This document shows positions 2,015 through 9,133 of a stretch of DNA of 64,000 bases, piece by piece (positions within the stretch are counted from its first letter, which is position 1; each line of letters begins with the position of its first letter). Under the pieces are notes generated by a model that worked only from the letters and a program-made list of their open reading frames with translations, ran no database searches and was not told the DNA's origin. The position numbers were made by a program, and so were the translations under genes. Origin of the DNA: an uncultured Pseudomonadota bacterium (lineage in GTDB: Bacteria; Myxococcota_A; UBA796; GCA-2862545); the NCBI GenBank assembly GCA_913061235.1, contig CAJXTB010000012.1, positions 124,001 to 188,000 on the forward strand, in the 5' to 3' direction.

Positions 2015-2740
2015 CTACTCGGCGTTCGTTGCGTCGATGAGCAGCTGCGTCAGTGCTTCGTAGTTTGCTGGAACACCGAGGTTGTTGGTGGTCAGATTGT
2101 AGACGCCCACGACTTCGTTGTCCCCATTGAGGATGACGACATCACGGTAGACAGGGTCCCACTGACTCCACGCGTCCACCTCTGCGGTGTCCTGCAACAA
2201 GCCGATGTCTCGGCCGTCTGTGAAGTTCGCGTTGCCGGACTCAAAGCCAATACCGTTCACCCCGTACAGGGTGACGGGAACGGCGAGGGCCATGGCGTCG
2301 AGGTCTGCTTGAATGTCGTTGAGGTAGCCAAACTGGCTACTGCAGTAGCTTCAAGTGGCGTGGGTGAAGTACCAGCCGCTGACCTGTTCGAGCAGGTCTC
2401 GTGGCGAGACATCTTCACCTGCTGTGGGCGAGGTGGTGTTGACGTCCATCAGGGCAAAGTCGGGGACTGGGCCTGCGGATGTGTCGGTGTCGAGGTCCGT
2501 GTCGGAATCGGTGTCGAGGTCCGTGTCGGAATCGGTGTCCGTGTCGGAATCGAGGTCTGTGTCGGAGTCGGTGTCCGAATCGACGTCAGAGTCGGTGTCT
2601 GAATCGACGTCAGAGTCGGTGTCCAGCTCGGTATCGCCTGAGGTGTCGAGCTCGGTCCCAGGGTCGGTGTCCTGCCCCTCTTCCGTGCACGCCGTGACGG
2701 TGGTGCCGAGCAGGAACAGAGCTGGGAAGATGCGACGCAT
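2015..2740 (-). CDS. Putative selenocysteine-containing thioredoxin-like lipoprotein (in-frame UGA as Sec130)
   Basis: Read through one internal TGA (2353-2351), the frame encodes 241 residues. Residues 1-18 are a lipoprotein signal ending TVTAC. Residues about 20-90 are a Glu/Asp/Thr/Ser linker (DTDSD, DVDSD repeats). From about residue 93 a thioredoxin-fold domain begins (VPDFALMDVN, SGWYFTHAT), then U-S-Y-C, then SSQFGYLNDIQADL, YGVNGIGFESGN, WDPVYRDVVILNG and VVGVYNLTTNN. The UGA replaces the first Cys of a CxxC-type redox motif (UxxC, partner Cys133), and clear domain sequence continues in the same frame on both sides. A hairpin of SECIS geometry follows. Conventional gene calling would give a truncated 129-residue protein (2351-2740) and a headless 92-residue piece (2015-2293). 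The alternative is a Cys-to-stop nonsense mutation or base error; selenocysteine machinery is not visible in this window. Confidence 0.75.
2324..2353 (-). promoter_or_regulatory. UGA codon and SECIS-like hairpin of the selenoprotein candidate
   Basis: On the minus strand the UGA (2353-2351) is followed by ten bases and then GTAGCC-AGTTT-GGCTAC (2340-2324), a perfect 6-bp stem with a 5-base loop. The apical loop starts 16 bases after UGA and has G at its second position. Bacterial SECIS elements are known to lie just 3' of the UGA, with the apical loop roughly 16-37 bases away and a G among its first two bases, so geometry fits. A competing 5-bp palindrome (GCTACTGCAGTAGC) overlaps it. Function is inferred. 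Confidence 0.55.
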
Positions 2741-2889: not shown

Positions 2890-3771
2890 ATGTTTTCGGC
2901 AGCAATTCTACTTTTAGCTGGTGTCTTTGCGCAGACGGAACCCGCAATGCCTACCGCCGACATGCTTGCATGGCCCGCCGGAGAAACACGTCGCTTCTAC
3001 TCGACTATGGCCTTTCGTTCGCCGTACGTGGTCACACTCATCGCTGTTCGAAACGAAGAGCGTACCGCCGCGGAAGTCGCCTTGTCGGCGGTGTTTCGCT
3101 GCGAATCCCTTGGCATCATGCGCAGTGCGACGGAAGTGCGCTGTCAAGTTGAAGACGCAGGCGTTCAGGCGACTCCTATGCAGTCAGATGCTGGCAAATT
3201 GCAGACAGTGCTTGAGGAGTGGGAGCGCAGTGCGGAAGCTGCCACAGTGTACTTTCGCATTCGCGAGGACGGCCGTGTTGACCGGGTGAGGCTCGAAGAC
3301 CTGCCGGACAGCGGACCCCGTGAGCGCTACATCTCGGGCAAGCTGGAGCTCTTCATGGCGCGCCTTCTAAGCCCCTTCGACCTTGAGCTTCCGGCACAAG
3401 GCGAGGCTGAGTGGAAGCACCGGTCTCCCGCTGTTGCGAGCATGCCGTTTAGCTCGGCGGGTAGTAGCCTCAAGCTGGCCCAGTCAGCGGTTCAGGAACA
3501 AGATGGCATCCTGGTATCCGGCAGCGGCAGCGGCCAGTTGGTGGGCCAGTACACGTTCTCTATGGAAGCTACTACCAAGCACCAGATCGACGCCGAGTGT
3601 CACTGCATCCGACGGGCTTCGGTTGAGGTCGTGGGCATGGCGAACGTGGACACTGGGCACTTGTCGTATCGAATGGCTGGGTACATCGAAGACATTGGCG
3701 AGCAGCCGCTAGAGCAGCCACTGACGAGCTGGGACTTGAGTGTGCCTCGGCTGATTCCGCAGGACGATTGA
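2890..3771 (+). CDS. Exported protein of unknown function
   Basis: A 293-residue protein with a Sec-type signal peptide (MFSAAILLLAGVFAQ, cleavage probably after AGVFA). The ATG at 2890 has GGAG five bases upstream. The mature part contains alternating beta-strand-like segments (SPYVVTLIAVRNE, GQYTFSMEATTKHQIDA, RRASVEVVGMANV) and a short Gly/Ser stretch (SGSGSGQL). No family was recognised; the overall look resembles periplasmic proteins that carry a repeated beta-sheet domain. It runs divergently from the selenoprotein candidate and convergently to the third six-cysteine lipoprotein, with only three bases between the facing stop codons. Confidence 0.8.
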   Translation: MFSAAILLLAGVFAQTEPAMPTADMLAWPAGETRRFYSTMAFRSPYVVTLIAVRNEERTAAEVALSAVFRCESLGIMRSATEVRCQVEDAGVQATPMQSDAGKLQTVLEEWERSAEAATVYFRIREDGRVDRVRLEDLPDSGPRERYISGKLELFMARLLSPFDLELPAQGEAEWKHRSPAVASMPFSSAGSSLKLAQSAVQEQDGILVSGSGSGQLVGQYTFSMEATTKHQIDAECHCIRRASVEVVGMANVDTGHLSYRMAGYIEDIGEQPLEQPLTSWDLSVPRLIPQDD

Positions 3772-5649: not shown

Positions 5650-6100
5650 TGTATCCCCCCGATGCGTCCTGTTGAAGGCGCCGCGGCCGGTATGGTGCCT
5701 AGTCACGTTGCATTTCGCAACGGTATTGTGGGGCTGAACTCTCCACGCACGCTCTTGGCGCGTCGGTGACCGTGCGACCAACTGGAGTCGTTTGTGCGCA
5801 TTATCCAAGTTGATGGGGGATTGTAGGAGCGGGTTTCGTCTGTCATTCAGGGCTCAACCGTTCTGCGAGATCGGATGACGCTCTGGAAGGATGTGTGTGC
5901 CTGATGTTGGGAAGATGAGACCCGCAGGGGCGGCTCGTCGGTTTTGTAGGGCTGGCGGCTCGGTGAGGGGGCGGTGGTGTGGGGTGAGTCCTGGGGCCCG
6001 GATGGGTGCATGCGTGGGGGTGTACCTTCAAGACTCGTTCGGTTCGCCCTGCGACATCGCGCATGCCGGTGTTACAACGCGCGCCATTCGCGGAGTCCCC
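5650..6100. other. Intergenic region without a recognised gene
   Basis: A 451-base divergent region between the glycine-rich protein gene (minus) and the penicillin-acylase-type gene (plus). Open frames here lack signal sequences, ribosome binding sites or recognisable domains. It presumably holds both promoters, but no convincing -35/-10 pair was found. Confidence 0.5.
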
Positions 6101-9100
6101 ATGCGCTCAGTCCTGCTCGTCCTTGCTCTTTCCCTGGTTGGTTGCCCCAAGACCGAAGACAGCGGTGAGATGGAGCCGTCACCCCTGTTGGACGTGGAAG
6201 AGACCGCGAGCTGGGAGATTGAGGGGCTTAGCGAAGAAGCGTACGTGGTCTTCACTGAGGGCGGCATTCCGCACATCTACGGCGCGTCAGATACGGATGT
6301 TGCCGCTGTTCACGGCTTTATCGCGGCACGTGACCGCTTTCTGCAGATCGATCTAGGCCGGCGCCTGGGACTGGGCGAGCTGAGCCCGTTGGTCGGAGAC
6401 ATTGGCCTAGAAGCAGATGTTGAGAGCGTTCAGACCGGTGTTCGCGTCATCACCGAGAACGTGGTCGCAGCCTTGTCTGATGAAGAACGGGCCCTCTTCG
6501 AAGCCTACGCGCACGGTGTCAACGCCTACATTGCGGCAGTCGTGGCCGAAGACCTGGACGCCCCGAGCGAATACCAGACCCTTGCCCCCATTCTTGGCCA
6601 CGCGACTCCTGGCGATATGTTGGAGCCGTTTGAGGTCGAAGATGTTGCCGCTATCGTCACCACCTTTGTGTTCCAGGCTGGGTATTCAAGCCGCGAGATT
6701 GGCTGGACCCGCGCCGTCTCCCAGCTCGAAGGCTTGTACGAAGGCGAAGCGCTTGCTGAGCTGCGCCAAGAGGGCGTCTGGGACGACGTGTGGAACCGCG
6801 TAGACCCGATTCACGGCGTAGTCTCCGCCCCTGACTTTGACGGTGCTCGTCGCAGCGCTGCCCTGCCGATGGTCCCGAACCTGCCGCACGTTCCCGACAC
6901 CTTGTTGGAGCGCGCCGAAGTCCGTGCGGACGCCCGTGAACGCCGCTGGCACCACGACCCGCTGGAAGGGTGGGGAAGCAACGCCTGGGCCGTAGGGTCA
7001 GGCGGTACCGCAGACGGCGGCTCGCTGTTGGCAGGAGACGGTCACCTCGACCTGTCCTCTCCGTCCATTGTCTGGTCGGTTTCTTTGGATTCCGACCACC
7101 TGTCCGGTGGCCAAGGCTCGCACCAATACGGTGTCACGAGCCCAGGTCTTCCGGCCATTGCGGCAGGTACAAACGGCAAGGTTGCTTGGTCGAGTACCCA
7201 GCCCTTCTCCGACATTAACGACCAGTACGCCGAGCAGATTCGCTTGTCGCCAGCCGGAGCCCCTACAGAGGCGCTCTTCAACGGCGACTGGCGTCCCTTG
7301 ACCGAGCACATGGACAGCTACAGCATCCGCGACGTCCCCTTCATTGACAGCATTGGCCGCACCGAAGAGTGGGCCCGGTACACCTTGTTTGACGGCCGCA
7401 TGTTGTCGGACATTGAAGGGCGCCGCGTGGACGGCGACTACGAAGCACAGGCTGGCGAGACGGTCGTCAACATGGGCGGCACGTTGCTGGTACCTGAGGA
7501 CACTGATGACGACGGCATCATCTCGGGACTGTCCTTCGACTTTACTGGCTTGGATGAGCGCTCGCTCACGTCGTTCTTTGGCGTTCGCAACGTGGAGACC
7601 GTTGAAGGATTCCGCGAGCTACTCACCCATACAGCAGCTCTGTCGCAGAACTTCGTGGTCAGTGACAGCGCCGGCTCGGTGATGTTCACTCAGTTCCAGG
7701 CCATGCCCTGCCGCGACACATTGCCGCGCGGTGAAGACGGTGGGTTTGCAGACGGTGCCAACCCTCGCTTTGTCATGGATGGAACTCGCTTCGGTGGCTT
7801 TACCATTCCGTTCACTGCCGAAGGACGGCTCGACTTTGACGACGCTGACAACTGCGTCATCCCACCCGAGCGCTACCCCTTCACGGTTGACCCCGCCCAA
7901 GGCTACGTACTGTCAGCGAACAACGACCCGAGTGGGTTGTCGCTCGACTCGAACCTTGAGAATGACGACGTCTACATTGGTGGGCCGTGGGAAGACGACT
8001 TCCGCGCGGTTCGTATTGATGAGCTTCTTGGCGAGCTCTCTGGCGCCCAGGCCGGAAGCATTGGCACCATGGAAGACACGCAGGCGGACCATAAGAGTGG
8101 CTTGGGGCAACAGTACGCACCGCTGCTTGTTGACGCGATTTCCCGCGCTCGGTTGCTGTCAGGGTCATCGGACGTCTTGACCGCGTCGGAGACACGCATG
8201 GTGTCGCTGTACACAGCAGATGCAGCGCGATGGGAAGAGGTCGAGGCCCGTCTCATTGCTTGGGGACAAGGGGACTACGACACGCCCAGCGGTGTGGACA
8301 CCTTCTACGACCCGCTGGTCGAAGGCGAACAGGCGGATGCCGTTGCCACCATGATCTTCAATGCTTGGCTGCCTCGCTACAGCAACTGGATCTACCAAGA
8401 CGAACGCTTCCCGGGTAGCCTTCTGTCCACCATCACCGGCGCCACCGGACGCACGCGTCTGATGTCCATTCTTCATGAAGGACGCGGACAGACGGGCCTG
8501 GCATCGCACAACCCCGAGACCGGCGAGTCGGCCTTCTTCGACCGCTTGGGCACCGAAGAAATCGAGACCAGCGACGAAGGCATGCTGCTCATGCTGACTG
8601 CCGCTCTCGATTACTTGGAGACCGAGTCCACCGAAGACGGCAAGGGTGGCTTTGGCACCGCGGACATGGACCAATGGCTGTGGGGACTGCGTCACTGGGC
8701 ACACTTCCCGAGTTTGCTCGGCAGCGCCTTTGGAACGGATGGCCCACTTGGAGCGCTGACTGCGTCGTTCGATATCAACGCAACTGACGTGTCTATTGCC
8801 GACGGCATTCCCTCGGGCGACCCTCGCCGTGACATCCCCGGCTGGCCCCGCCACGGAGACGCGCTGAACGTGGACTCCGGCAATCCTGGCTGGTCCGGCA
8901 CGCACTGGGACTATGACTTTGGCCCCAGCTTCCGCTTGGTTGTGGCCCTTGGACCCAACGGCGAAGTCAGCGGTCAGAACATCCTGCCCGGCGGCCAATC
9001 CGCAGTACTCGCTGCCGACCACTACACCGACCAAGTGCCGCTGTGGCTGTCGAACACGGCCTTGCCCATTCACTGGACGGTGGACGACGTGGTCGCCAAC

Positions 9101-9133
9101 GGTGTCGAGCGCCACACGTTCAACGCCCCGTAG
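6101..9133 (+). CDS. Penicillin acylase (S45 Ntn-hydrolase) family lipoprotein
   Basis: A 1010-residue protein. The start at 6101 is preferred because GGAG lies five bases upstream and it opens a lipoprotein signal (MRSVLLVLALSLVGC); the frame is open further upstream without those features. Penicillin-acylase features are the N-terminal chain with GGIPHIYGASD and HGFIAARDRFLQIDLGRR, the GWGSNAWAVGSGGTADGGS segment where autocatalytic cleavage would expose the nucleophile Ser293, and GDGHLDLSSPS just after. The family hydrolyses amide bonds (beta-lactam side chains, acyl-homoserine lactones); the substrate here is unknown. It is longer than the typical 750-850 residues. Location is inferred to be the envelope, lipid-anchored. 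Confidence 0.9.
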   Translation: MRSVLLVLALSLVGCPKTEDSGEMEPSPLLDVEETASWEIEGLSEEAYVVFTEGGIPHIYGASDTDVAAVHGFIAARDRFLQIDLGRRLGLGELSPLVGDIGLEADVESVQTGVRVITENVVAALSDEERALFEAYAHGVNAYIAAVVAEDLDAPSEYQTLAPILGHATPGDMLEPFEVEDVAAIVTTFVFQAGYSSREIGWTRAVSQLEGLYEGEALAELRQEGVWDDVWNRVDPIHGVVSAPDFDGARRSAALPMVPNLPHVPDTLLERAEVRADARERRWHHDPLEGWGSNAWAVGSGGTADGGSLLAGDGHLDLSSPSIVWSVSLDSDHLSGGQGSHQYGVTSPGLPAIAAGTNGKVAWSSTQPFSDINDQYAEQIRLSPAGAPTEALFNGDWRPLTEHMDSYSIRDVPFIDSIGRTEEWARYTLFDGRMLSDIEGRRVDGDYEAQAGETVVNMGGTLLVPEDTDDDGIISGLSFDFTGLDERSLTSFFGVRNVETVEGFRELLTHTAALSQNFVVSDSAGSVMFTQFQAMPCRDTLPRGEDGGFADGANPRFVMDGTRFGGFTIPFTAEGRLDFDDADNCVIPPERYPFTVDPAQGYVLSANNDPSGLSLDSNLENDDVYIGGPWEDDFRAVRIDELLGELSGAQAGSIGTMEDTQADHKSGLGQQYAPLLVDAISRARLLSGSSDVLTASETRMVSLYTADAARWEEVEARLIAWGQGDYDTPSGVDTFYDPLVEGEQADAVATMIFNAWLPRYSNWIYQDERFPGSLLSTITGATGRTRLMSILHEGRGQTGLASHNPETGESAFFDRLGTEEIETSDEGMLLMLTAALDYLETESTEDGKGGFGTADMDQWLWGLRHWAHFPSLLGSAFGTDGPLGALTASFDINATDVSIADGIPSGDPRRDIPGWPRHGDALNVDSGNPGWSGTHWDYDFGPSFRLVVALGPNGEVSGQNILPGGQSAVLAADHYTDQVPLWLSNTALPIHWTVDDVVANGVERHTFNAP

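Follow-up and report, generated by a model that had tools for sequence, protein, structure and literature searches.

Does the TGA that interrupts a minus-strand reading frame for a thioredoxin-like protein, in the genome of an uncultured bacterium, terminate translation, or is it read as selenocysteine (Sec)? The window, i.e. the whole stretch of 64,000 nucleotides that was analysed, belongs to a 7.18 Mb genome that is 99% complete. The frame begins with an ATG at 2740, is crossed by a single in-frame TGA (2353-2351) and closes with a TAG (2017-2015), with SGWYFTHAT immediately upstream of the TGA and SYCSSQFGYLNDIQ downstream of it. An initial sequence-only reading had placed the TGA exactly at the first Cys of a CxxC motif, generating UxxC, and this placement is borne out by both the sequence and the aligned column of the family model NF053656. 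The same reading anticipated that standard gene calling would split the gene, and ORF calling indeed yields two ORFs (2740-2351 and 2293-2015).

Gene layout

A scan of the window covered 343 TGAs, each flanked on either side by 30 open codons, and the TGA at 2353-2351 obtained the best two-sided coding score of them all, in agreement with the earlier view that the frame is coding on either side. Since this TGA ranks first and the runners-up display no protein pattern recognisable by eye, the accompanying caution that other genes of the window also carry internal stops found no support. An exported Sec-containing lipoprotein with a long acidic linker had, furthermore, been considered unusual; the layout is present (Table 1), yet it is not unique, as the relative L049 shares it. 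In a profile search of the translation, the linker gives low-complexity matches to SD-repeat adhesins.

Table 1. Features of the predicted selenoprotein gene, in window coordinates
Feature	Position	Strand	Basis
Predicted selenoprotein gene, 241 aa with the TGA read through, comprising a lipoprotein signal, an acidic linker and a TUGYCR-type thioredoxin-fold domain	2015..2740	minus	sequence, translation, NF053656
Lipoprotein-type signal peptide MRRIFPALFLLGTTVTAC, probable lipobox VTAC (by eye)	2687..2740	minus	translation
Acidic Asp/Ser/Thr repeat linker, DTDSDVDSD type	2477..2686	minus	translation
ResA-like thioredoxin-fold domain, predicted U-S-Y-C active site	2015..2476	minus	NF053656, AlphaFold2, ResA match
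TGA, predicted selenocysteine codon, residue 130	2353-2351	minus	aligned column, window TGA ranking
Putative bacterial SECIS hairpin GUAGCC-AGUUU-GGCUAC	2324..2340	minus	covariation, fold, published rules

Around the gene, on the same strand, lie three small Cys-containing lipoproteins, paralogues that share 36-40% identity, at 4242-3775, 2013-1573 and about 1452-1003, the one at 2013 beginning directly after the stop codon of the selenoprotein frame; these paralogues were not found beside homologues elsewhere. Within 1.5 kb flanks of 29 loci, the neighbours 2013-1573 and 2890-3771 had no relatives beside the homologues, and because of this lack of conservation no operon partner can be named. 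Further along the window, a long plus-strand ORF (5891-9133) appears penicillin-acylase-like by eye, based on a GGIPHIYG motif.

Family membership

The translation, with Cys in place of Sec, matches the NCBIfam model NF053656 (redoxin_TUGYCR, 'TUGYCR motif thioredoxin fold (seleno)protein') along the entire profile (positions 1-146 of 146), scoring 207.6 bits, approximately twice the curated cut-off of 100, while the domain alone (2015..2476) scores 209.6 bits. The protein shares with this family the full-length domain match, the Sec position at the motif and the thioredoxin fold; its motif reads TUSYCS rather than TUGYCR, which is within the normal variation of the family. The gene is, in other words, a new member of a family that NCBI already models as a (seleno)protein. 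A Pfam scan of the whole protein returned no passing match.

No paper naming TUGYCR was found in the literature searched, and NF053656 is absent from the text of a 2026 review covering 119 families of prokaryotic selenoproteins (PMC13188914); the family thus seems to be little described within the searchable literature. The same review presents a 'Redoxin family' of UxxC selenoproteins found by metagenomics (PMC13188914), which are similar in being UxxC redoxins but are filed under PF08534, for which the present protein has no match.

Conservation of the TGA

Matches above the NF053656 cut-off were found in 55 of 379 genomes of the phylum; nine of these matches aside, each has a single in-frame stop, which is always TGA and never TAA or TAG (one further stop-free row, in genome G133, represents the downstream half of a match that was split). 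Among the best 30 matches in the phylum, the column carries TGA in 29 and TGC in one. In a broader set of 90 rows, TGA occurs 79 times, TGC eight times, TGT twice and GCC once, though these totals represent a biased frequency, because loci L091-L110 were chosen for containing TGA; the unbiased frequency is that of the 379-genome counts. Among named genomes, which include cultured Nannocystis strains, TGA is present in 78 of 80 loci, the other two having lost both Cys positions.

The alignment of homologues that the sequence-only reading had suggested reveals that Cys (TGC/TGT) takes the place of Sec at the same column in TGA-free members, with the exception of two remote Planctomycetota copies with Ser. 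The family, which is Sec-rich, extends from Myxococcota to metagenome-assembled genomes (MAGs) of Planctomycetota and Krumholzibacteriota; no viral relatives were found. Two copies from Planctomycetota MAGs (L182 and L187) possess Ser at the first motif position and Ala at the second (SxYA) and are apparently redox-dead. The cultured Nannocystis exedens DSM 71 has this TGA together with the hairpin. Nannocystis pusilla DSM 53165, another cultured strain, carries two TUGYCR copies with TGA (L170 and L192) on the same contig, separated by about 4 kb.

The putative SECIS hairpin

Numbered from the U of the UGA, bases 14-19 (GUAGCC) pair with bases 25-30 (GGCUAC), leaving 10 bases between the UGA and the stem and 16 between the UGA and the loop (AGUUU, with G second); the 6-bp stem, the 5-base loop and the spacing are all as first described. 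Bacterial SECIS elements are defined by a loop of 3-9 nt, a stem of 4-16 bp, a G as first or second loop base, a distance of 16-37 nt from the UGA and a minimum free energy at or below -7.5 (PMC13188914). The hairpin agrees with these rules, as had been claimed for it: the loop measures 5 nt (AGUUU) or 3 nt (GUU), with G second or first, the stem 6-7 bp, the distance 16-17 nt (16 nt being the shortest that the published range allows), and the energy -9.5 to -10.9 kcal/mol. The folding energy is -9.5 kcal/mol (z -4.5) for the 19-nt hairpin by itself and -10.9 kcal/mol (z -1.5) for the 33 nt counted from the UGA, while a 54-nt stretch does not stand out against shuffles (z -0.9); because the z-score of this longer stretch is unremarkable, free energy, weak evidence when taken alone, is not used as an argument here.

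The covariance analysis proposed at the outset was more informative, revealing strong compensatory change. Of 74 distinct Sec sequences, 62 form the complete six-pair stem, as compared to 20.6 expected on average (and no more than 29 in any of 1000 trials) under permutation of synonymous codons within each column, which leaves every protein sequence intact; not one of the ten Cys homologues forms it. When the residues of the present gene are recoded at random with synonymous codons, the full set of six pairs arises in 0.7% of draws. In a 62-row alignment, from which certain remote sequences with a poorer fit to the stem were omitted (the 74-sequence test included all), 98.4% of cells pair, both sides have changed in 64 cells against 13 in shuffles, and sliding the stem partner abolishes pairing. 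The stem varies from GUAGCC/GGCUAC in the present gene to GCGCCC/GGGCGC in L050 and UUUCCC/GGGAAA in L091, while C19, G21 and G25 are nearly invariant. Hairpin counts in the named-genome loci do not constitute an independent test, because the patterns used to find them include some of the motif region, albeit without the TGA. The covariation of the stem is strong evidence for selection on RNA structure inside the coding region.

An Rfam scan of the stretch found no matching family. When a model of the hairpin was searched over the organism's own genome, the present gene was the sole match, so that any further selenoproteins encoded there rely on hairpins of another kind.

Selenocysteine machinery

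The genome was searched for selA, selB, selC and selD, as recommended by the sequence-only reading, and all four are present above their curated cut-offs: tRNA-Sec (selC) with 60.8 bits and anticodon tca, SelB with 309 bits, SelA with 452 bits and SelD with 196 bits. The genome hence encodes the full set that accompanies a bacterial selenoprotein.

Fold and probable reaction

An AlphaFold2 model of the domain, generated with 49 relatives supplied, reached a pLDDT of 97.3. Its best match among solved structures is ResA (Foldseek E 7e-10), on which it superposes with a Z of 17.4 and an rmsd of 2.2 over 133 residues, indicating a ResA-type thioredoxin-like fold. The domain does not reach the Pfam gathering scores of the ResA/TlpA-like redoxins (AhpC-TSA / Redoxin), with AhpC-TSA at 12.4 bits against 26 (E 0.16), and for this reason we infer the reaction from fold and motif. 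ResA of Bacillus and the TlpA/DsbE-type extracytoplasmic thiol-disulfide oxidoreductases resemble the protein in fold, in their CxxC-type site and, presumably, in extracytoplasmic location; the protein differs from them in having Sec for the first Cys, in its identity of about 19%, and in its linker and lipoprotein anchor. The Sec-Ser-Tyr-Cys motif most likely forms the site of an extracytoplasmic thiol-disulfide (selenylsulfide) oxidoreductase.

Competing explanations

If the TGA were a real stop, ending a pseudogene or separating two ORFs of which the second would start from ATG 2293, the split returned by ORF calling would be its natural outcome. However, TGA occupies the same column in dozens of genomes, the sequence downstream of it retains 40-61% identity across relatives, the stops in above-cut-off matches are exclusively TGA, and the hairpin covaries; this explanation is refuted in practice by conservation and appears very improbable. 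A sequencing or assembly error, by which TGA would stand for TGC or TGT, is scarcely credible: Cys homologues do occur, yet the TGA is common to dozens of independent genomes, cultured Nannocystis strains among them, and the hairpin goes with the TGA and is missing from the Cys forms.

A different question is whether the selenoprotein might act mainly as a peroxidase, of the peroxiredoxin or glutathione-peroxidase-like kind, rather than as a thiol-disulfide oxidoreductase. AhpC-TSA is matched weakly by 28 of 49 members, and the model can be aligned with peroxiredoxins as well (Z about 15); against this, the UxxC spacing is that of ResA/TlpA and thioredoxins, and ResA is the best structural match, which makes a peroxidase function rather unlikely.

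The TGA at 2353-2351 is almost certainly a selenocysteine codon, whose residue is predicted to lie in the active site of a thioredoxin-like protein that is exported. We have very high confidence that this represents a genuine selenoprotein gene, its UGA being read as Sec via a SECIS element and its product being an exported ResA/TlpA-like redoxin. The original suggestion of selenocysteine insertion is supported by the Sec machinery, the conserved TGA, the Cys substitution and the covarying hairpin, from which we infer insertion itself; each of the three refuting conditions named in that reading turned out in its favour. SelB and tRNA-Sec would read the UGA as selenocysteine, directed by the hairpin, which begins ten bases after it. 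The product would then be exported and probably lipoprotein-anchored, carrying its ResA/TlpA-like thioredoxin domain on the acidic linker, and Sec-Ser-Tyr-Cys would exchange a disulfide or selenylsulfide outside the cytoplasm.

A possible link to selenoprotein P

Animal selenoprotein P is an exported protein with an N-terminal UxxC thioredoxin-like domain. Remote family members from the same phylum (L091-L093 and L115-L124) score above the cut-off of the corresponding Pfam family, SelP_N (PF04592), with up to 56.8 bits; these possess UxxC and the hairpin, most with an in-frame TGA, and in L091-L093 SelP_N is a better match than other redoxin families. L075 bridges the two groups, with 152.6 bits for NF053656 and 20.7 bits for SelP_N, just under the cut-off of 23.2. 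The likeness thus lies in the UxxC thioredoxin-like domain of an exported protein and in the distant bacterial members that exceed the cut-off, whereas the protein described here has no SelP_N match, nor was one found in its own genome. Based on these profile matches, the TUGYCR family, together with its distant UxxC relatives, may possibly correspond in bacteria to the N-terminal domain of selenoprotein P, and that animal protein would then descend from an exported bacterial redoxin or share a Sec-containing ancestor with one. This tentative link is a lead only, because other redoxin families match the same proteins; if true, an animal selenium-transport protein would be related by ancestry to an exported bacterial redoxin.

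Significance

Because gene callers cut the protein in two, this predicted extracytoplasmic selenoenzyme would be overlooked in annotation. Cultured Nannocystis strains carry the family, so that both Sec insertion and function are open to testing there. Finally, the joint loss of the TGA and the hairpin in the Cys forms offers a clean natural experiment in the evolution of SECIS elements.
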